From positions 1 to 33,596 of the forward strand of contig JAJZPZ010000018.1 of NCBI GenBank assembly GCA_021847795.1: a DNA stretch of 33,596 bases, given 5' to 3'. Below the pieces are notes generated by a model. The model worked only from the letters and a program-made list of their open reading frames with translations. It had not been told where the DNA came from and did not search any database. Origin of the DNA: Nitrospirota bacterium (lineage in GTDB: Bacteria; Nitrospirota; Thermodesulfovibrionia; Thermodesulfovibrionales; Dissulfurispiraceae). Position numbers and translations under genes: made by a program. Positions 3,177 through 31,167 of this stretch are shown piece by piece. Position 1 is the stretch's first letter. Each line of letters starts with the position of its first letter.

Positions 3177-3938
3177 ATGCAGGACAGCGTAAGGCTTGTG
3201 CTTGAGTTCTATAAAGAACTCGGCTTTGAAAGATTACCTCTTAAAGGCAGTGATGAGTTATGCGTGATGAGTGATGAGTTGAAGGATAAAGACCCGTTAC
3301 ATCTCACGTCTCACGTTTCACGGTCTTTCTACTCATCACCCATTACCCATCACTCATCACTGCCTTCGGATAAAGAGGCTGCGCTTACGGCCCTGAATAA
3401 AGACATCGGTGATTGTCGGAGATGCAAACTTTCGAACGGCAGGACGCAGGTTGTCTTCGGCGAAGGTGATGCCCGCGCAAAGATCATGTTCATCGGTGAG
3501 GCCCCTGGCCGGGAAGAGGACCTGCAGGGCAGGCCCTTTGTCGGGGATGCGGGGCAGCTTTTGACAAAGCTCATTGAAAAGATGGGGCTGAAGAGAGCTG
3601 ACGTATATATCGCGAACATTGTAAAATGCAGGCCCCCTATGAACCGGGACCCCGAGGCTGACGAGATGGCTGCATGCTCACCCTTCCTTGACCGGCAGAT
3701 TGAGATCATATCCCCCCGGGTTATTGTCTCGTTGGGTAAAATATCCGCATATACCCTTTTAGGCATTAAAGGCCCTATCAGCAAGTTTTCGATTACCAGG
3801 ACCAGGGGTAAATTCAACGAGTACAGGGGAATTCCCCTTATGCCCACATTCCACCCCGCCTATCTGCTCAGAAACCCGAAGGACAAATGGCTTACCTGGG
3901 ACGATGCGCAGGCGGTGCTGCAGAAATTGAAGCAATGA
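3177..3938 (+). CDS. udg: Uracil-DNA glycosylase, family 4 (Fe-S type)
   Basis: Removes uracil from DNA as the first step of base-excision repair. The 253-residue product has the family 4 signatures. Motif A is GEAPG at residues 107-111, motif B is HPAYLLRNP at 226-234, and four cysteines (C80, C83, C151, C167) are spaced to hold the 4Fe-4S cluster. The ATG follows a GGAGG at 3164-3168 with 8 bases of spacing. Residues about 24-64 are not family sequence: they are encoded by an inverted repeat at 3244-3366 that lies in frame between the first helix and the first cluster cysteines. Without it the protein would be about 212 residues, close to family size. The family assignment is secure; whether the insert is tolerated is an inference from the intact frame. 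Confidence 0.95.
3244..3366 (+). repeat. Palindromic element (family A) inside udg
   Basis: A perfect 15-bp inverted repeat bounds this element: the arm at 3244-3258 begins AAGGCAGTGATGAGT and its complement is at 3352-3366. Inside are further imperfect units of the type GTGATGAGT and ACTCATCAC. The 123 bp are a multiple of three and contain no stop in the udg frame. Related units occur at 9885-10012, 11126-11183, 13939-13987 and 20069-20211. Confidence 0.85.
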
Positions 3939-8042: not shown

Positions 8043-9086
8043 ATGCAAAGTGAAAAGCGGGAAATGAGAAATGGAAAGTATGCAGTAAAGATGGTCCCCC
8101 TGTTTTTTCTGTTTCTCACTTCTTATTACCTTCTCCCCACTGCTTTCGCCTTTGCCGAAACTACCATACGGGTGCTGCTGGTGGACGGCAAGAACTCGAA
8201 GGTCCCGCAGAAAGATGAAAAGGTTGAAAAGCTCGGGAATGCCAAGGGAGAGGTCATATTGAGCGGATTCAAATATCCCGGCGCCCTGGATGTGTGGAAA
8301 GGCGAGAACGGCCTGTACATCGTGAACGAGGTCCCTTTGGAGGATTACGTCAAGGGTGTTGTTGCCGCTGAAGTCGGAAGCAAATGGGACGCGGAGGCGC
8401 TCAAGGCCCAGGCCGTTGCCTCGCGGACCTATGCCATATACCAGAAGCTTAACAACAGCGCAAACAAAATCTCCTACAATCTTACTTCCTCGGTCCTCCA
8501 TCAGGTATACAAGGGGAGCGATATCCCTGAATCCATAGCTAAAGCCGTAGACGACACGAAAGGAGAAATACTTACCTACGAGGGCAGTCCGATAGCGGCC
8601 TTCTACCACTCAACAAGCGGCGGGATAACCGAAGATCCTGTCGAAGTTTTCGGGAAGAGTTATCCCTACCTGAAATCCGTTGAGACGAATTGCGAGATTT
8701 CCCCTTACTACATGTGGGAAAAGAGGATACCGGTATCAGAGCTGGAAAAGGCCCTGAGCACAAGCGGGCTGAAGGATATCTTCATAGATTCCTATACGGA
8801 TTCCAACCGTGTGAAAAATTTTAAAATTATTACTGAAACAGATGAATTTACCATCCCCGGGAACGATCTGAGAAAAAACCTCGGATGGGAGAGATTGCCG
8901 AGCATTCTGATAACGAGTCTTACCAGGAGCGGCAATATTTATATATTTGAAGGAAAGGGGTACGGCCACGGCGTCGGGATGTGCCAGTGGAGTGCCCTGG
9001 AGATGGCAAAGGAAGGGAAAAACTACAAAGAGATCCTTTCCAAGTTTTATCCGGGTACCACCCTTGAACATTATGAGAACCGCTGA
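8043..9086 (+). CDS. SpoIID/LytB-family peptidoglycan hydrolase
   Basis: Probable exported lytic transglycosylase acting on peptidoglycan. The 347-residue protein has an N-terminal signal peptide (hydrophobic residues 18-37, predicted cut after AFA at 38). The SpoIID/LytB domain includes VPLEDYVKGVVAAE with the likely catalytic E110, AQAVASRTYA, the HSTSGG block around H189, and the C-terminal GYGHGVGMCQWSA motif. The ATG follows GGAGG and touches the upstream stop codon. The DNA for residues 1-36 looks like a dispersed inverted repeat (see 8045-8140). In non-spore-formers this family is linked to cell division and wall remodelling; no sporulation is implied. It overlaps queA by 14 bases. Confidence 0.9.
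   Translation: MQSEKREMRNGKYAVKMVPLFFLFLTSYYLLPTAFAFAETTIRVLLVDGKNSKVPQKDEKVEKLGNAKGEVILSGFKYPGALDVWKGENGLYIVNEVPLEDYVKGVVAAEVGSKWDAEALKAQAVASRTYAIYQKLNNSANKISYNLTSSVLHQVYKGSDIPESIAKAVDDTKGEILTYEGSPIAAFYHSTSGGITEDPVEVFGKSYPYLKSVETNCEISPYYMWEKRIPVSELEKALSTSGLKDIFIDSYTDSNRVKNFKIITETDEFTIPGNDLRKNLGWERLPSILITSLTRSGNIYIFEGKGYGHGVGMCQWSALEMAKEGKNYKEILSKFYPGTTLEHYENR
8045..8140 (+). repeat. Signal-peptide repeat (family C), copy 1
   Basis: A low-complexity imperfect inverted repeat. GTGAAAAGCGGGAAATGAGAAA-type sequence on the left is answered by TTTCTCACTTCTTATTACC on the right. The right half encodes the hydrophobic core of the SpoIID-like signal peptide. A comparable arrangement occurs at 28012-28130 on the other strand. 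Confidence 0.5.
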
Positions 9087-10215
9087 CTTCAACTTCAGCT
9101 TTTCCAGAGAGCTCATTGCAGCACGACCTTCCGGCAAAAGAGACCATTCCAGGCTTCTTGTCCTCGATCGGGACGGCAGCGTAGAGCATAAAAGGTTTGC
9201 CGACATTGCTGAGTACCTGGACAAAGGGGACATGCTCCTGTTGAACAACACGAAGGTGTTTCCCGCCCGTATCACAGGCACAAAGCCTTCCGGGGGAAAG
9301 TTGGAGGTCCTGCTCATGAAGGAAACTGCAGGTAACGGGACCTGGGAAGTCCTCTGCAAAGGCAGGTTCAACGGGCAGCTCCTTTTCTTCGGCAGCCTGA
9401 GAGCCGAGATATGGACTGAGGAGGATGCCGGGGGAGGGCGCCCTAAGAGGTGCTTGAGGTTTACGGATGCAGATCCGTCGCGTATTGCGGACCTGCTCTG
9501 GCAGTACGGCTCTATGCCGCTGCCGCCTTATATACGGCGTATGCCGGATGAGGCGGACAAGGAAAGGTACCAGACAGTGTATGCGCAGAAACAGGGCTCA
9601 ATCGCCGCTCCCACTGCGGGGTTGCACTTTACGAAGGAACTCCTTGAGGCAATAAGAAAGAAGGGGGTGGCTGTAAGGACCCTGACCCTGCATGTGGGCA
9701 TCGGCACGTTCAAACCGATAAAAGCTGAATTGCTCAGGGAACATACGATGGATTCCGAGTATTTCGAGTTCGGCGCGGCCCTGATTGATGAGATCCGGGA
9801 AGTAAAGAGTGCCGGCAACCGGCTCGTAACAGTAGGGACAACAGCAACAAGGGCTGTTGAGGGATTCATGAGCGGACGGTATAAAGACAGTAACGAGTTA
9901 ATAGTAACAAGTAACGAGTTAAAGACTAACGACAAAGACTTGTCACTGTCTTCAGATCCTTTACTTGTTACTCGTTACTCGTCACTGCCTTCAGACTCAT
10001 CACTCATAAAGGGATACACGGATATCTTCATTTATCCGGGCTACGAATTCAAGGTGGTGGACAGCCTGATTACCAACTTCCACCTCCCTTGTTCAACACC
10101 CCTGATGCTTGCTGCTGCGTTTTCAGGTTTTGAAAATATATCAAGGGCTTACGATGAGGCTATTGCCATGAATTATAGATTTTTTTCCTATGGTGATGCT
10201 ATGCTAATTTTATGA
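9073..10215 (+). CDS. queA: S-adenosylmethionine:tRNA ribosyltransferase-isomerase QueA
   Basis: Transfers and rearranges the ribose of SAM onto preQ1-tRNA to make epoxyqueuosine, the substrate of QueH. I use the ATG at 9073, which begins the family N-terminus. The frame is open further upstream inside the SpoIID-like gene. Family blocks are LLLNNTKVFPARI, GSIAAPTAGLHFT, LHVGIGTFKPI, TVGTTATRAVE and YPGYEFKVVDSLITNFHLP. The product is 380 residues, about 30-40 more than usual. Residues about 272-313 are encoded by a palindromic repeat (9885-10012), where other QueA proteins have a short loop before the TDIFIYPGY block. It is translationally coupled at both ends: a 14-base overlap upstream and an ATGA overlap with the SPOR gene. 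Confidence 0.96.
   Translation: MRTADFNFSFSRELIAARPSGKRDHSRLLVLDRDGSVEHKRFADIAEYLDKGDMLLLNNTKVFPARITGTKPSGGKLEVLLMKETAGNGTWEVLCKGRFNGQLLFFGSLRAEIWTEEDAGGGRPKRCLRFTDADPSRIADLLWQYGSMPLPPYIRRMPDEADKERYQTVYAQKQGSIAAPTAGLHFTKELLEAIRKKGVAVRTLTLHVGIGTFKPIKAELLREHTMDSEYFEFGAALIDEIREVKSAGNRLVTVGTTATRAVEGFMSGRYKDSNELIVTSNELKTNDKDLSLSSDPLLVTRYSSLPSDSSLIKGYTDIFIYPGYEFKVVDSLITNFHLPCSTPLMLAAAFSGFENISRAYDEAIAMNYRFFSYGDAMLIL
9885..10012 (+). repeat. Palindromic element (family A) inside queA
   Basis: Units such as GTAACAAGTAACGAGT (about 9904-9919) are mirrored by ACTTGTTACTCGTTAC around 9963-9978, and related CACTGCC and ACTCATCACTC units follow. The element keeps the queA frame open and encodes a Ser/Asp/Leu-rich peptide absent from the enzyme family. 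Confidence 0.8.
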
Positions 10216-11125: not shown

Positions 11126-11183
11126 GCAGTAACGAGTTGCGAGTAACAAGTTGTCAGCCTTTAACTTGTTACTCGTTACTTTT
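11126..11183 (+). repeat. Palindromic element (family A) before phoH
   Basis: A perfect 13-bp inverted repeat, CGAGTAACAAGTT at 11140-11152 and its complement at 11163-11175, with an extra GCAGTAACGAGT unit on the left. It fills the whole SPOR-phoH gap and could form a hairpin in the transcript just ahead of phoH. Confidence 0.85.
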
Positions 11184-18946: not shown

Positions 18947-19741
18947 TTAGAGATGAAAATACCATCTTAATATGCGCCCGCCGAAGAAGAGGGTGATTAT
19001 CGCGCCTAATGCCAGGAAGGGACCGAAAGGTATTTTAGTTTTCCTGCTCTTTCCTTTCAGGACCATCAGGAATATTCCCACAACCGAGCCGGTGAGGCTC
19101 CCCACGAAGGTGGTAAGGAGGACGGCCTTCCACCCCATGAAGGCGCCGACCATGGCCATCATCTTAATGTCCCCGCCTCCCATGCCGCCCCTGCTTAAAA
19201 CAGCGATGAGATAAAACAGCCCGCCCCCCAGCGCCAGCCCGACCAGGGAATTTATCAACCCTACCAGGGGCAGGGGAGATGAGGCGCCTGCGGCAAAGAG
19301 GGAAAAGGGATCAGGAAGGAAGAGAGACGCTCCCAGCACTCCGACCAGAGCCCCCGGCAGGGTGATTACATCGGGGATTATCTGGAAGTCCAGATCAATG
19401 AATGTTATGACTACCATTGAGGAGAGGAAAGCACAGAGAAACAGCAGGCGCCATCCCGGGCCGAAGTATCTCATTGCCCAGAGATAAAAGAGACCGTTAA
19501 GCAGTTCAACCAGGGGGTAGCGGAGCGATATCAGTTCACCGCAGCCCCTGCATTTGCCTCTCAAGAGCACATAGCTCAGCAGCGGGATATTTTCCCAGGG
19601 TCGTATGGAAGTCTTGCAGACGGGGCAAGCTGAAGGAGGCCTGACTATGGAGATGCCGCGGGGAACCCTGTAGATGCACACATTGAGAAAAGACCCGATG
19701 ACAAGCCCGAAGATGAATGCTATGGGTTCAACATAGTTCAT
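18947..19741 (-). CDS. pilD: Prepilin peptidase (type IV pilus / type II secretion)
   Basis: Inner-membrane aspartic protease that cleaves and N-methylates type IV prepilins and pseudopilins. The 264 residues include the N-terminal methyltransferase-linked region with two CxxC zinc pairs (C39, C42, C64, C67). The catalytic aspartates lie in the FIDLDFQIIPD segment (D116/D118, D124) and in GGGD (D191). About seven to eight hydrophobic helices are visible. Its ATG overlaps the stop of the preceding small gene as ATGA. No pilin or secretion genes are in the window, so this one is separated from the machinery it serves. Confidence 0.95.
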   Translation of the reverse strand: MNYVEPIAFIFGLVIGSFLNVCIYRVPRGISIVRPPSACPVCKTSIRPWENIPLLSYVLLRGKCRGCGELISLRYPLVELLNGLFYLWAMRYFGPGWRLLFLCAFLSSMVVITFIDLDFQIIPDVITLPGALVGVLGASLFLPDPFSLFAAGASSPLPLVGLINSLVGLALGGGLFYLIAVLSRGGMGGGDIKMMAMVGAFMGWKAVLLTTFVGSLTGSVVGIFLMVLKGKSRKTKIPFGPFLALGAIITLFFGGRILRWYFHL

Positions 19742-20049
19742 GATACCAGTCTGCTTATTTCAGAGGCCTTTTCGACCGTCTCTTTGAGTTCAGGTTCAAG
19801 GGTTTCCAATTTCTTTATGGCATACACCACTTCCTTGTCGGCATAGACATTCTTGTCCTTACCCCTCATTTCGTATACCTCTTCCCCAATCTGCATCAGC
19901 AGTTTGTCCTTTTGCTTTTTCAGTTCTTCCGATCTGTAGAGCAGTTTGAATATTGTAATCTCGATCCTGATCCGCTCGGAGAGCAGAGAAGAAAACCACT
20001 TCAGTTTTTCCATGCCGCTCTCAAAATCTCTTTTGACTCTGCCGAACAT
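19738..20049 (-). CDS. Small coiled-coil protein, unknown function
   Basis: A 103-residue charged protein without signal peptide. Its helical heptad-like character (LYRSEELKKQKDKLLMQIG and KKLETLEPELKETVEKA) predicts a coiled coil. I start it at the ATG at 20049, which has an excellent AGGAGG at 20054-20059 on the reverse strand. A longer frame to 20127 runs into palindromic repeat DNA. Its stop overlaps the pilD start (ATGA), so the two are co-translated; a link to pili is only suggested by that. Confidence 0.8.
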   Translation of the reverse strand: MFGRVKRDFESGMEKLKWFSSLLSERIRIEITIFKLLYRSEELKKQKDKLLMQIGEEVYEMRGKDKNVYADKEVVYAIKKLETLEPELKETVEKASEISRLVS

Positions 20050-20068
20050 AGGGCCTCCTTTAAACGAC

Positions 20069-20211
20069 GGTAATGCGTAAAGTGTGATGCGTAATGAGTT
20101 AACGGCAAAAAAGCACAGAGGTTGCATGCAAACACAAATTCCTGTCAGGTTTGAGTCTCATTCTGTTTTCATCCTTTACGCATCACGCATTACGCATCAC
20201 GCGTTACGGTC
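20069..20211. repeat. Palindromic element (family A) between recG and the coiled-coil gene
   Basis: The left side (20069-20101) has GTAATGCGTAA and GTGATGCGTAATG units; the right side (20172-20209) has the complements CATCACGCATTACGCATCAC and CGTTACGG. The central 70 bp are unrelated. It fills the gap between recG and the coiled-coil gene, and its right end abuts the recG stop codon. Confidence 0.8.
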
Positions 20212-20213
20212 TT

Positions 20214-28504: not shown

Positions 28505-29248
28505 TTATCTTTTGAATTTTACGAGCTTTGAAAAACTGTCGGCTTTCAGGCTGGCCCCTCCGACCAGGGCGCCGTCTACGTCTTCGCACGCCATGAGCGC
28601 ATCAATATTCTCGGGGGTCACGCTCCCGCCGTAAAGAATCCTGATATTCGCGGCCGCGCCACCGTATATGGCAGCGAGCCTTTCACGAATGTACTTATGC
28701 GCTTCCTGCGCCTGCTCTGTGGTGGCTGTTTTCCCGGTGCCGATGGCCCAGATGGGCTCGTAAGCCACCACAATATGATCAGAAGGGATATCTTTCAGCC
28801 CCTCTTCGACTTCCCTTTTCAGCACATCGAACATCTTTCCGGCCTCCCGTTCCTCCAGGGATTCCCCGATACAGAATATGACGTTCAGGTTGTGCTTGAG
28901 TGCGGCCTTTACCTTTTTATTGATTATCTCGTCGGTTTCCTTAAAGTACTGCCGCCTTTCCGAATGGCCGATGATCACATGCGTACATCCGGCATCGGTG
29001 AGCATGCCGGGGGCGACTTCGCCGGTGTATGCTCCTTTGTCCTCGTAGAAAATATCCTGTGATGAAAGCGACACATTGCTGCCCTTCATGAGCGCAGCAG
29101 CCGCAGGAAGGGAGGTAAAAGGCGGCGCAATCACAATATCCGCATCCTTTACATCGCGCACAAGGGGCAGAAACTCATTGAGAAAGGCCTGGGTCTCGCC
29201 GATTGTCTTATTCATTTTCCAGTTTGCTGATATAAAGGGCCTGCGCAT
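28505..29248 (-). CDS. tpiA: Triosephosphate isomerase
   Basis: Interconverts dihydroxyacetone phosphate and glyceraldehyde 3-phosphate in glycolysis and gluconeogenesis. The 247-residue TIM barrel has the catalytic set K11 (NWKMN), H95 (IIGHSERR) and E164 (AYEPIWAIGTGKTAT with loop 6). The length is normal. Its promoter lies 6 bases upstream of the ATG, predicting a leaderless message. An AAGGAG directly touching the ATG is too close to work as a normal Shine-Dalgarno. secG follows. Confidence 0.97.
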   Translation of the reverse strand: MRRPFISANWKMNKTIGETQAFLNEFLPLVRDVKDADIVIAPPFTSLPAAAALMKGSNVSLSSQDIFYEDKGAYTGEVAPGMLTDAGCTHVIIGHSERRQYFKETDEIINKKVKAALKHNLNVIFCIGESLEEREAGKMFDVLKREVEEGLKDIPSDHIVVAYEPIWAIGTGKTATTEQAQEAHKYIRERLAAIYGGAAANIRILYGGSVTPENIDALMACEDVDGALVGGASLKADSFSKLVKFKR

Positions 29249-29344: not shown

Positions 29345-29514
29345 AGGGGAGACAGGCAAGCCGAAAAGATGTTCATAGCGATACCGAATGCAGAACCCTC
29401 CCCCCATTTAAAGGCAATTACAGCTGCCACCTGCCCCTTCAGCAGAAGAAACAGGCACTCTCATATTTCTTTCATCGCATTATGAACGTCTTTTCGGCTT
29501 GCCTGTCTCCCCCA
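29345..29514. mobile_element. Inverted-repeat element (MITE-like)
   Basis: The arm at about 29345-29375 (GGGGAGACAGGCAAGCCGAA and on to GTTCATA) is complemented at about 29480-29512. There are few mismatches over roughly 30 bases. The 105-bp middle has no coding potential. No transposase is nearby. The structure fits a non-autonomous element or a long hairpin. Confidence 0.6.
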
Positions 29515-31071: not shown

Positions 31072-31167
31072 TGGGGTCAGGCCTTGACATTTGACATTTG
31101 CTCCACACCTATATTGCCGGGCAATTTAACGTTTGCCGTAAATGTCAAATATCAAGACCTGACCCCA
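31072..31167. repeat. GGGGTCAGG-type inverted repeat (REP-like)
   Basis: The 27-base arms at 31072-31098 (TGGGGTCAGGCCTTGACATT...) and 31141-31167 are complementary with 2 mismatches, around a 42-base spacer. I recall such GGGGTCAGG...GACATT repeats as dispersed REP-like elements, often mobilised by Y1-type (RAYT) transposases. None is present here. It fills the lysS-lolC gap. Confidence 0.75.

Follow-up and report, generated by a model that had tools for sequence, protein, structure and literature searches.

Introduction

In-frame coding palindromes are known from the Rickettsia palindromic elements (RPEs) and the Wolbachia palindromes. In the accessible portions of the two sources, they are described as interspersed elements of ~100-150 bp, many of which lie in frame in unrelated conserved genes and encode a recurring peptide (PMC10969869, PMC2229807), and a wider occurrence of such protein evolution is treated, in the same portions of the 2024 review, as merely conceivable (PMC10969869). 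The REPs, multi-copy bacterial palindromes of 20-40 bp, some of them within ORFs, carry a GTAG or CGTC end tag, and a CGTC tetranucleotide is given for one end of the R. conorii RPEs in the sections available of that paper (PMC3733652). Short repeated words characterise the paired hepta- and octanucleotide elements of Geobacter metallireducens (classes 1-3 and Gmet_H4), with words such as MTYCTGA and GGACCGG in the part of the source at hand (PMC2700814), and the heptanucleotide long simple repeats of Beggiatoaceae, for example TAACTGA, which the excerpted source describes as direct and chiefly intergenic (PMC4679880).

Here we describe an element found in a window of 33,596 nucleotides (the whole stretch of DNA analysed) from a Nitrospirota genome, G000. 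Like the RPEs, it is a palindrome of ~100-150 bp with complementary ends, present in many copies, in frame in unrelated conserved genes and encoding a recurring peptide. Unlike them, it belongs to another phylum, its arms are arrays of 7-bp words in several dialects, the wording of the element held by a given linker changes from genus to genus, and its in-frame copies are more numerous per genome than the counts cited in the accessible portions of the RPE papers, with up to four per protein (PMC10969869, PMC2229807). The CGTC end is absent, the ends being AAGGCAG and CTGCCTT, and the nearest named loci of the host gene are not from Rickettsiales. Since neither the CGTC end nor the taxon agreed, we liken the element to RPEs by description and do not file it among them.

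The paired 7/8-mer elements of G. metallireducens are closest in build. Each pairs tandem arrays of 7- or 8-bp words across the two strands, with variable spacing, but the words differ (GATGAGT/AACAAGT in Nitrospirota), and the Geobacter elements are interpreted as regulatory, in-frame coding not being described in the portion of the source available (PMC2700814). With the REP/RAYT palindromes, as far as the sections cited above describe them, the element shares its multiple copies, some of them inside ORFs; unlike these, it ends in AAGGCAG...CTGCCTT without a GTAG-type tag, and did not adjoin the RAYT-like genes examined (8 of 13). It has a 7-bp unit in common with the Beggiatoaceae repeats but, in contrast to those direct, chiefly intergenic repeats as excerpted, forms palindromic coding inserts.

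A literature search that mostly covered papers outside subscription yielded no earlier report of in-frame coding palindromes in Nitrospirota. The kind of element is known (RPE-like) and, as far as our searches reach, new to the phylum. A lineage far from Rickettsia and Wolbachia thus carries many coding palindromes, with enough related genomes to watch sites persist and text change. This makes an old question testable, namely whether such elements are freshly inserted or have their text replaced where they stand, and by what route old proteins gain new peptides.

A Coding Palindrome in the Uracil-DNA Glycosylase Gene

The palindrome lies near the 5' end of the uracil-DNA glycosylase (UDG) gene (Table 1). 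Its arms, 43 nt each and 86% complementary, are spaced by 37 nt, and its ends, AAGGCAG...CTGCCTT, are exact complements over the outermost 15 bases. Folded as RNA it reached -60.8 kcal/mol versus -25.8 +/- 3.3 for 200 shuffles (z -10.65), and folded as DNA a z of -8.64; no shuffle out of 200 matched it in either case. The insert of 123 bp, or 41 codons, is stop-free in the frame of ORF 3177-3938. These results bear out the preliminary description, which had reported a palindrome with perfect ends, a multiple of three in length and without stops.

Table 1. Coordinates and supporting evidence of the host gene, the palindromic element, its further copies in the window and the nested second element
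Feature	Position	Strand	Evidence or remark
Host gene, uracil-DNA glycosylase, family-4-type	3177..3938	+	PF03167 E 4.4e-40; best solved relative 1ui0
Palindromic element, D dialect (GATGAGT words)	3244..3366	+	inverted repeat, model match, fold
5' arm of UDG element	3244..3286	+	inverted-repeat search
Loop of UDG element, with more CACGTCT-type 7-bp units	3287..3323	+	unit number varies among copies
3' arm of UDG element	3324..3366	+	inverted-repeat search
Second in-frame copy, in queA (gene 9082-10215), N dialect AACAAGT/AACGAGT	9884..9991	+	R1 E 1.3e-12; PF02547 both sides; sister comparison
Short N-dialect palindrome just 5' of phoH-like gene; also in sister species	11128..11180	+	
Longer, looser copy at 5' end of small ORF 19738-20127 (minus strand)	20064..20213	-	R1 E 4.1e-11; sister copy worded differently
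Hosts of nested second element	L269 (G001 CarA); G001 QueA (joined L200-L202); L193 (G000 CobB/CobQ-like)		

Among solved structures, 1ui0 aligned with the UDG (E 1.2e-53) only from residue 73 on, and the alignments of a few other relatives started between residues 55 and 70. In the AlphaFold2 model, built with 36 sequences, a helix occupies residues 2-14, residues 24-48 are disordered (pLDDT < 50) and the core reaches ~97. The insert is therefore predicted to lengthen a flexible, disordered linker that joins the N-terminal helix to a catalytic core left intact. It had been placed between helix 1 and the Fe-S cysteines: it does precede the invariant Cys80 and Cys83 and lies outside the catalytic core, but a further modelled helix (65-77) also separates it from these cysteines. 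The addition of about 41 residues, likewise proposed, holds relative to orthologues with linkers of 3-6 residues but not relative to the sister species G001, whose linker is already 37 residues long.

Genome-Wide Copies and Word Structure of the Arms

The 123 bases of the UDG element gave 72 match rows within G000, the closest other copy being 94% identical. An insertion specific to UDG was thus ruled out, the element being multi-copy. A model of the element (R1), made from 12 copies, matched 128 rows in this genome, corresponding after merging of strands to at least 79 distinct places, a lower bound because 150 of 1666 candidates were scored. The UDG copy had the third-highest model score of the 79 places and is among the best preserved, in agreement with the earlier suggestion that it is well suited to define the element.

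The element measures ~85-150 bp, has terminal inverted repeats (a MITE feature), and its arms are strings of 7-bp words with their complements on the opposite strand. Self-match was 0.52 at lag 7, 0.43 at lag 14 and 0.36 at lag 21, versus ~0.255 in shuffles (0.256 +/- 0.005 at lag 7). Two dialects were recognised in G000, D (GATGAGT, GATGCGT) and N (AACAAGT, AACGAGT), and the loop carries further 7-bp units, variable in number between copies. The two arms varied in concert: paired changes filled 173 two-sided cells, versus 108 +/- 22 in shuffled and 27-53 in slid controls. The shuffle control is lenient and its significance overstated because every place entered the alignment on both strands, and related copies were aligned together.

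Within the window, ORF 19738-20127 (minus strand) as listed begins inside an element copy (20064-20127), and its true start is therefore probably further in. A weak model match at 8051-8146 (E 0.007) overlaps ORF 8043-9086 at its N-terminus, and the element may have supplied part of the signal-like peptide there.

In-Frame Copies in Conserved Enzymes

We read the sequence context of 70 of the 79 places. Nineteen of the 70 lie inside open frames that extend for 30 aa or more to either side, and their hosts are 17 conserved enzymes, for which we assigned short names from Pfam domains: UDG, QueA, MnmA, ComEC, the DHODB Fe-S subunit, LplA, PrmC, a XerC/D-type recombinase, CarA, a BcrAD/DUF2229 activator (with four inserts), a CbiG/precorrin methylase fusion, Alr, a CBS/PolyA-polymerase protein, QueC, GlyS, a CobB/CobQ-type amidotransferase and a P-type ATPase. 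All 19 inserts are open in their host frame. The element's common frame is open in 18 of them (the remaining copy is read from the opposite strand) versus 6 of the 51 other places, a comparison that is partly circular because the in-gene class requires an open frame. Free of this circularity is the single phase shared by all 19 in-gene copies, 18 of which also lie on one strand. They encode a recurring peptide of the ...ITHHSSLP type. A separate tally of peptide matches, which overlaps the in-gene set and in which flanks were not checked individually, assigned 46 of 69 places to open frames that span 200 aa or more, whereas 15 had stops and 8 were open over a shorter length.

Inserts were found between domains in Alr (residues 247-315, with domains at 31-246 and 323-450), CarA, ComEC and PrmC, and within a Pfam domain match in QueC and QueA. 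In our reading, the element has one potentially open reading frame and is tolerated in proteins only where the host frame joins it; it would then be translated as a flexible, soluble linker peptide that leaves the enzyme whole. We infer that the peptide is translated and harmless, and the element is probably neutral to its host.

The Alr insert of G000 (L179) comprises about four tandem rounds of a DASRITHHASRSF unit, and that of G001 (L254) a single differently worded element. In some hosts (Table 1), a second element type, GGGGACTG...TGTCCCC, is nested in the loop of a coding palindrome; it keeps the frame and encodes a peptide near GLSLFTNSRWFTTDE...RMGTVPG.

The Same Sites in the Sister Species and Related Genera

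Synteny links the window to contig C14 of G001, which has related sequence at each of the four element places (3244, 9884, 11128 and 20064). The UDG linker of G001 is palindrome-derived and starts at the same codon as the G000 insert, but is differently worded. All nine comparable in-gene sites, which had been picked for their occupancy in G000, were occupied in G001: the dialect differed at five (UDG, QueA, BcrAD-1, BcrAD-3, Alr), was mixed at one (BcrAD-2) and was the same at three (BcrAD-4, MnmA, CarA). A tenth candidate, PrmC, had no match in G001. The direction of change varied, UDG being D in G000 and N in G001 and QueA the reverse, and the 5' starts of the elements were often alike whatever the dialect (AAAGACAGT).

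UDG was present in 37 of 40 relatives, 29 of which were aligned with our own copy. Four of these 30 linkers were too short for the word test; among the remaining 26, tandem words reached significance in 10 (families f1, f2 and f5), invariably with a period of 7 or 8, and in none of the other 16. Four of the 30 folded at z < -5. At the UDG codon of the insert, elements of different wording also occur in several further genera, with the 5' boundary at that codon. The linkers of BcrAD (19 sequences), MnmA, Alr and CarA likewise differ in their words from genus to genus, and their counterparts in more distant genera are short. One genome, G003, has a dialect of its own, not found in G000, G001 or G013; of its 44 rows, 20 lie in open frames that span 200 aa or more. 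In a protein search of G013, the UDG peptide of that genome matched only itself, which counts against generality, and a DNA match to the element was absent from 24 of the 40 relatives.

The nearest named UDG loci belong to Nitrospirae/Thermodesulfovibrionales MAGs, and the window probably falls in that order or close to it. Among 80 distant UDG loci, the 37 that were read had ordinary linkers and no such palindrome; the counterexample named in the preliminary description, the same peptide in distant taxa, was thus not encountered in them, and a conserved UDG peptide was ruled out. Short inverted repeats (arms <= 17 nt) occurred in 6 of these 37 loci.

The proposal of a recent insertion survives in part. 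The UDG insert is a repeated element whose text may be young, but its simple recent entry into an uninserted gene is not supported: since G001 and several genera hold differently worded elements at the same codon, the site is probably old.

Proposed Persistence of Sites and Rewriting of Text

We consider it quite probable that the palindrome is an RPE-like, non-autonomous coding element whose sites persist while their text is rewritten within each genome. Element sites would be old and inherited, and each genome would overwrite them with the words it currently uses. Copies would exchange this text through ectopic gene conversion or hairpin template switching, and slippage of the polymerase on 7-bp units would alter element length. 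The constancy of sites and ends, the exchange of words in both arms and the variable number of units are easier to reconcile with conversion or template switching, combined with slippage, than with new transposition, and we would give this particular mechanism about an even chance. The portion available of one study puts forward a 7-nt contact of the polymerase as a factor that promotes slippage in repeats of this kind (PMC4679880). More tentatively, and with somewhat less conviction than the mechanism itself, dozens of linkers in Thermodesulfovibrionales could be permanent slots for coding palindromes that outlast genera, their 7-8-bp text being repeatedly overwritten, in frame and on either arm, with the word set current in each genome. 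Such a system would amount to concerted evolution inside essential proteins by hairpin-templated copying, not driven by a transposase.

The main rival to rewriting is repeated insertion into the few tolerant linkers. A resident Y1/RAYT transposase would mobilise a MITE- or REPIN-like element, the shared linkers being survivable in-frame targets hit independently in each genus. G000 has 13 Y1_Tnp genes, its copies are dispersed, with a 94% identical relative of the UDG copy elsewhere in the genome, and many inserts sit between Pfam domains, all of which would agree with such mobility. However, the palindrome flanked none of the eight Y1_Tnp loci examined (out of 13 genes), and the five loci with readable ends had terminal repeats of the GGGGTCAG or GGGACAAC type. 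Moreover, the 5' boundary falls at the same codon across several genera, and no clear target-site duplication was seen by eye in the flanks. We identified neither a transposase nor another enzyme for the element, and RAYT mobilisation was set aside as the leading idea on the evidence of the Y1_Tnp loci; we regard it as possible but rather unlikely. An inverted repeat at 31072-31167 of the window ends in GGGGTCAGGCCTTGA / TCAAGACCTGACCCC, the end type of the terminal repeats around Y1_Tnp genes, and is probably a different miniature element of RAYT type.

Selection for a functional DNA or RNA element (a nucleoid- or regulator-binding site, or an mRNA hairpin) would account for the maintained complementarity of the arms, and Geobacter elements of like architecture are read as IHF/HU-type sites in the part of the source available (PMC2700814). 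This explanation seems improbable to us: the words differ between related genera, the placement in unrelated enzymes follows no regulatory logic, and Rfam returned nothing over cut-off for the element.

An intron, intein or IStron excised after transcription or translation would suit the sharply complementary ends and the preserved host frame, but deserves hardly any credence, as the insert is open in frame in 19 of 19 in-gene copies, its 41 residues are far below intein size, and its Rfam search gave sub-threshold matches only; intron and other RNA-family identities (including group I/II) were thus ruled out, and splicing-like removal is unsupported. An artefact of metagenome assembly or binning, suggested by several copies at contig ends (e.g. 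L013, L015, L160, L195, L196), is similarly unlikely because independent genomes show the same phenomenon, including the single-contig G005, and the UDG copy is interior to its 33.6-kb contig, syntenic with G001.

Elsewhere in the window, a further pair of 32-nt arms, 97% complementary and 103 nt apart (29346-29512), lies just beyond ORF 28505-29248, which we take to be triosephosphate-isomerase-like.
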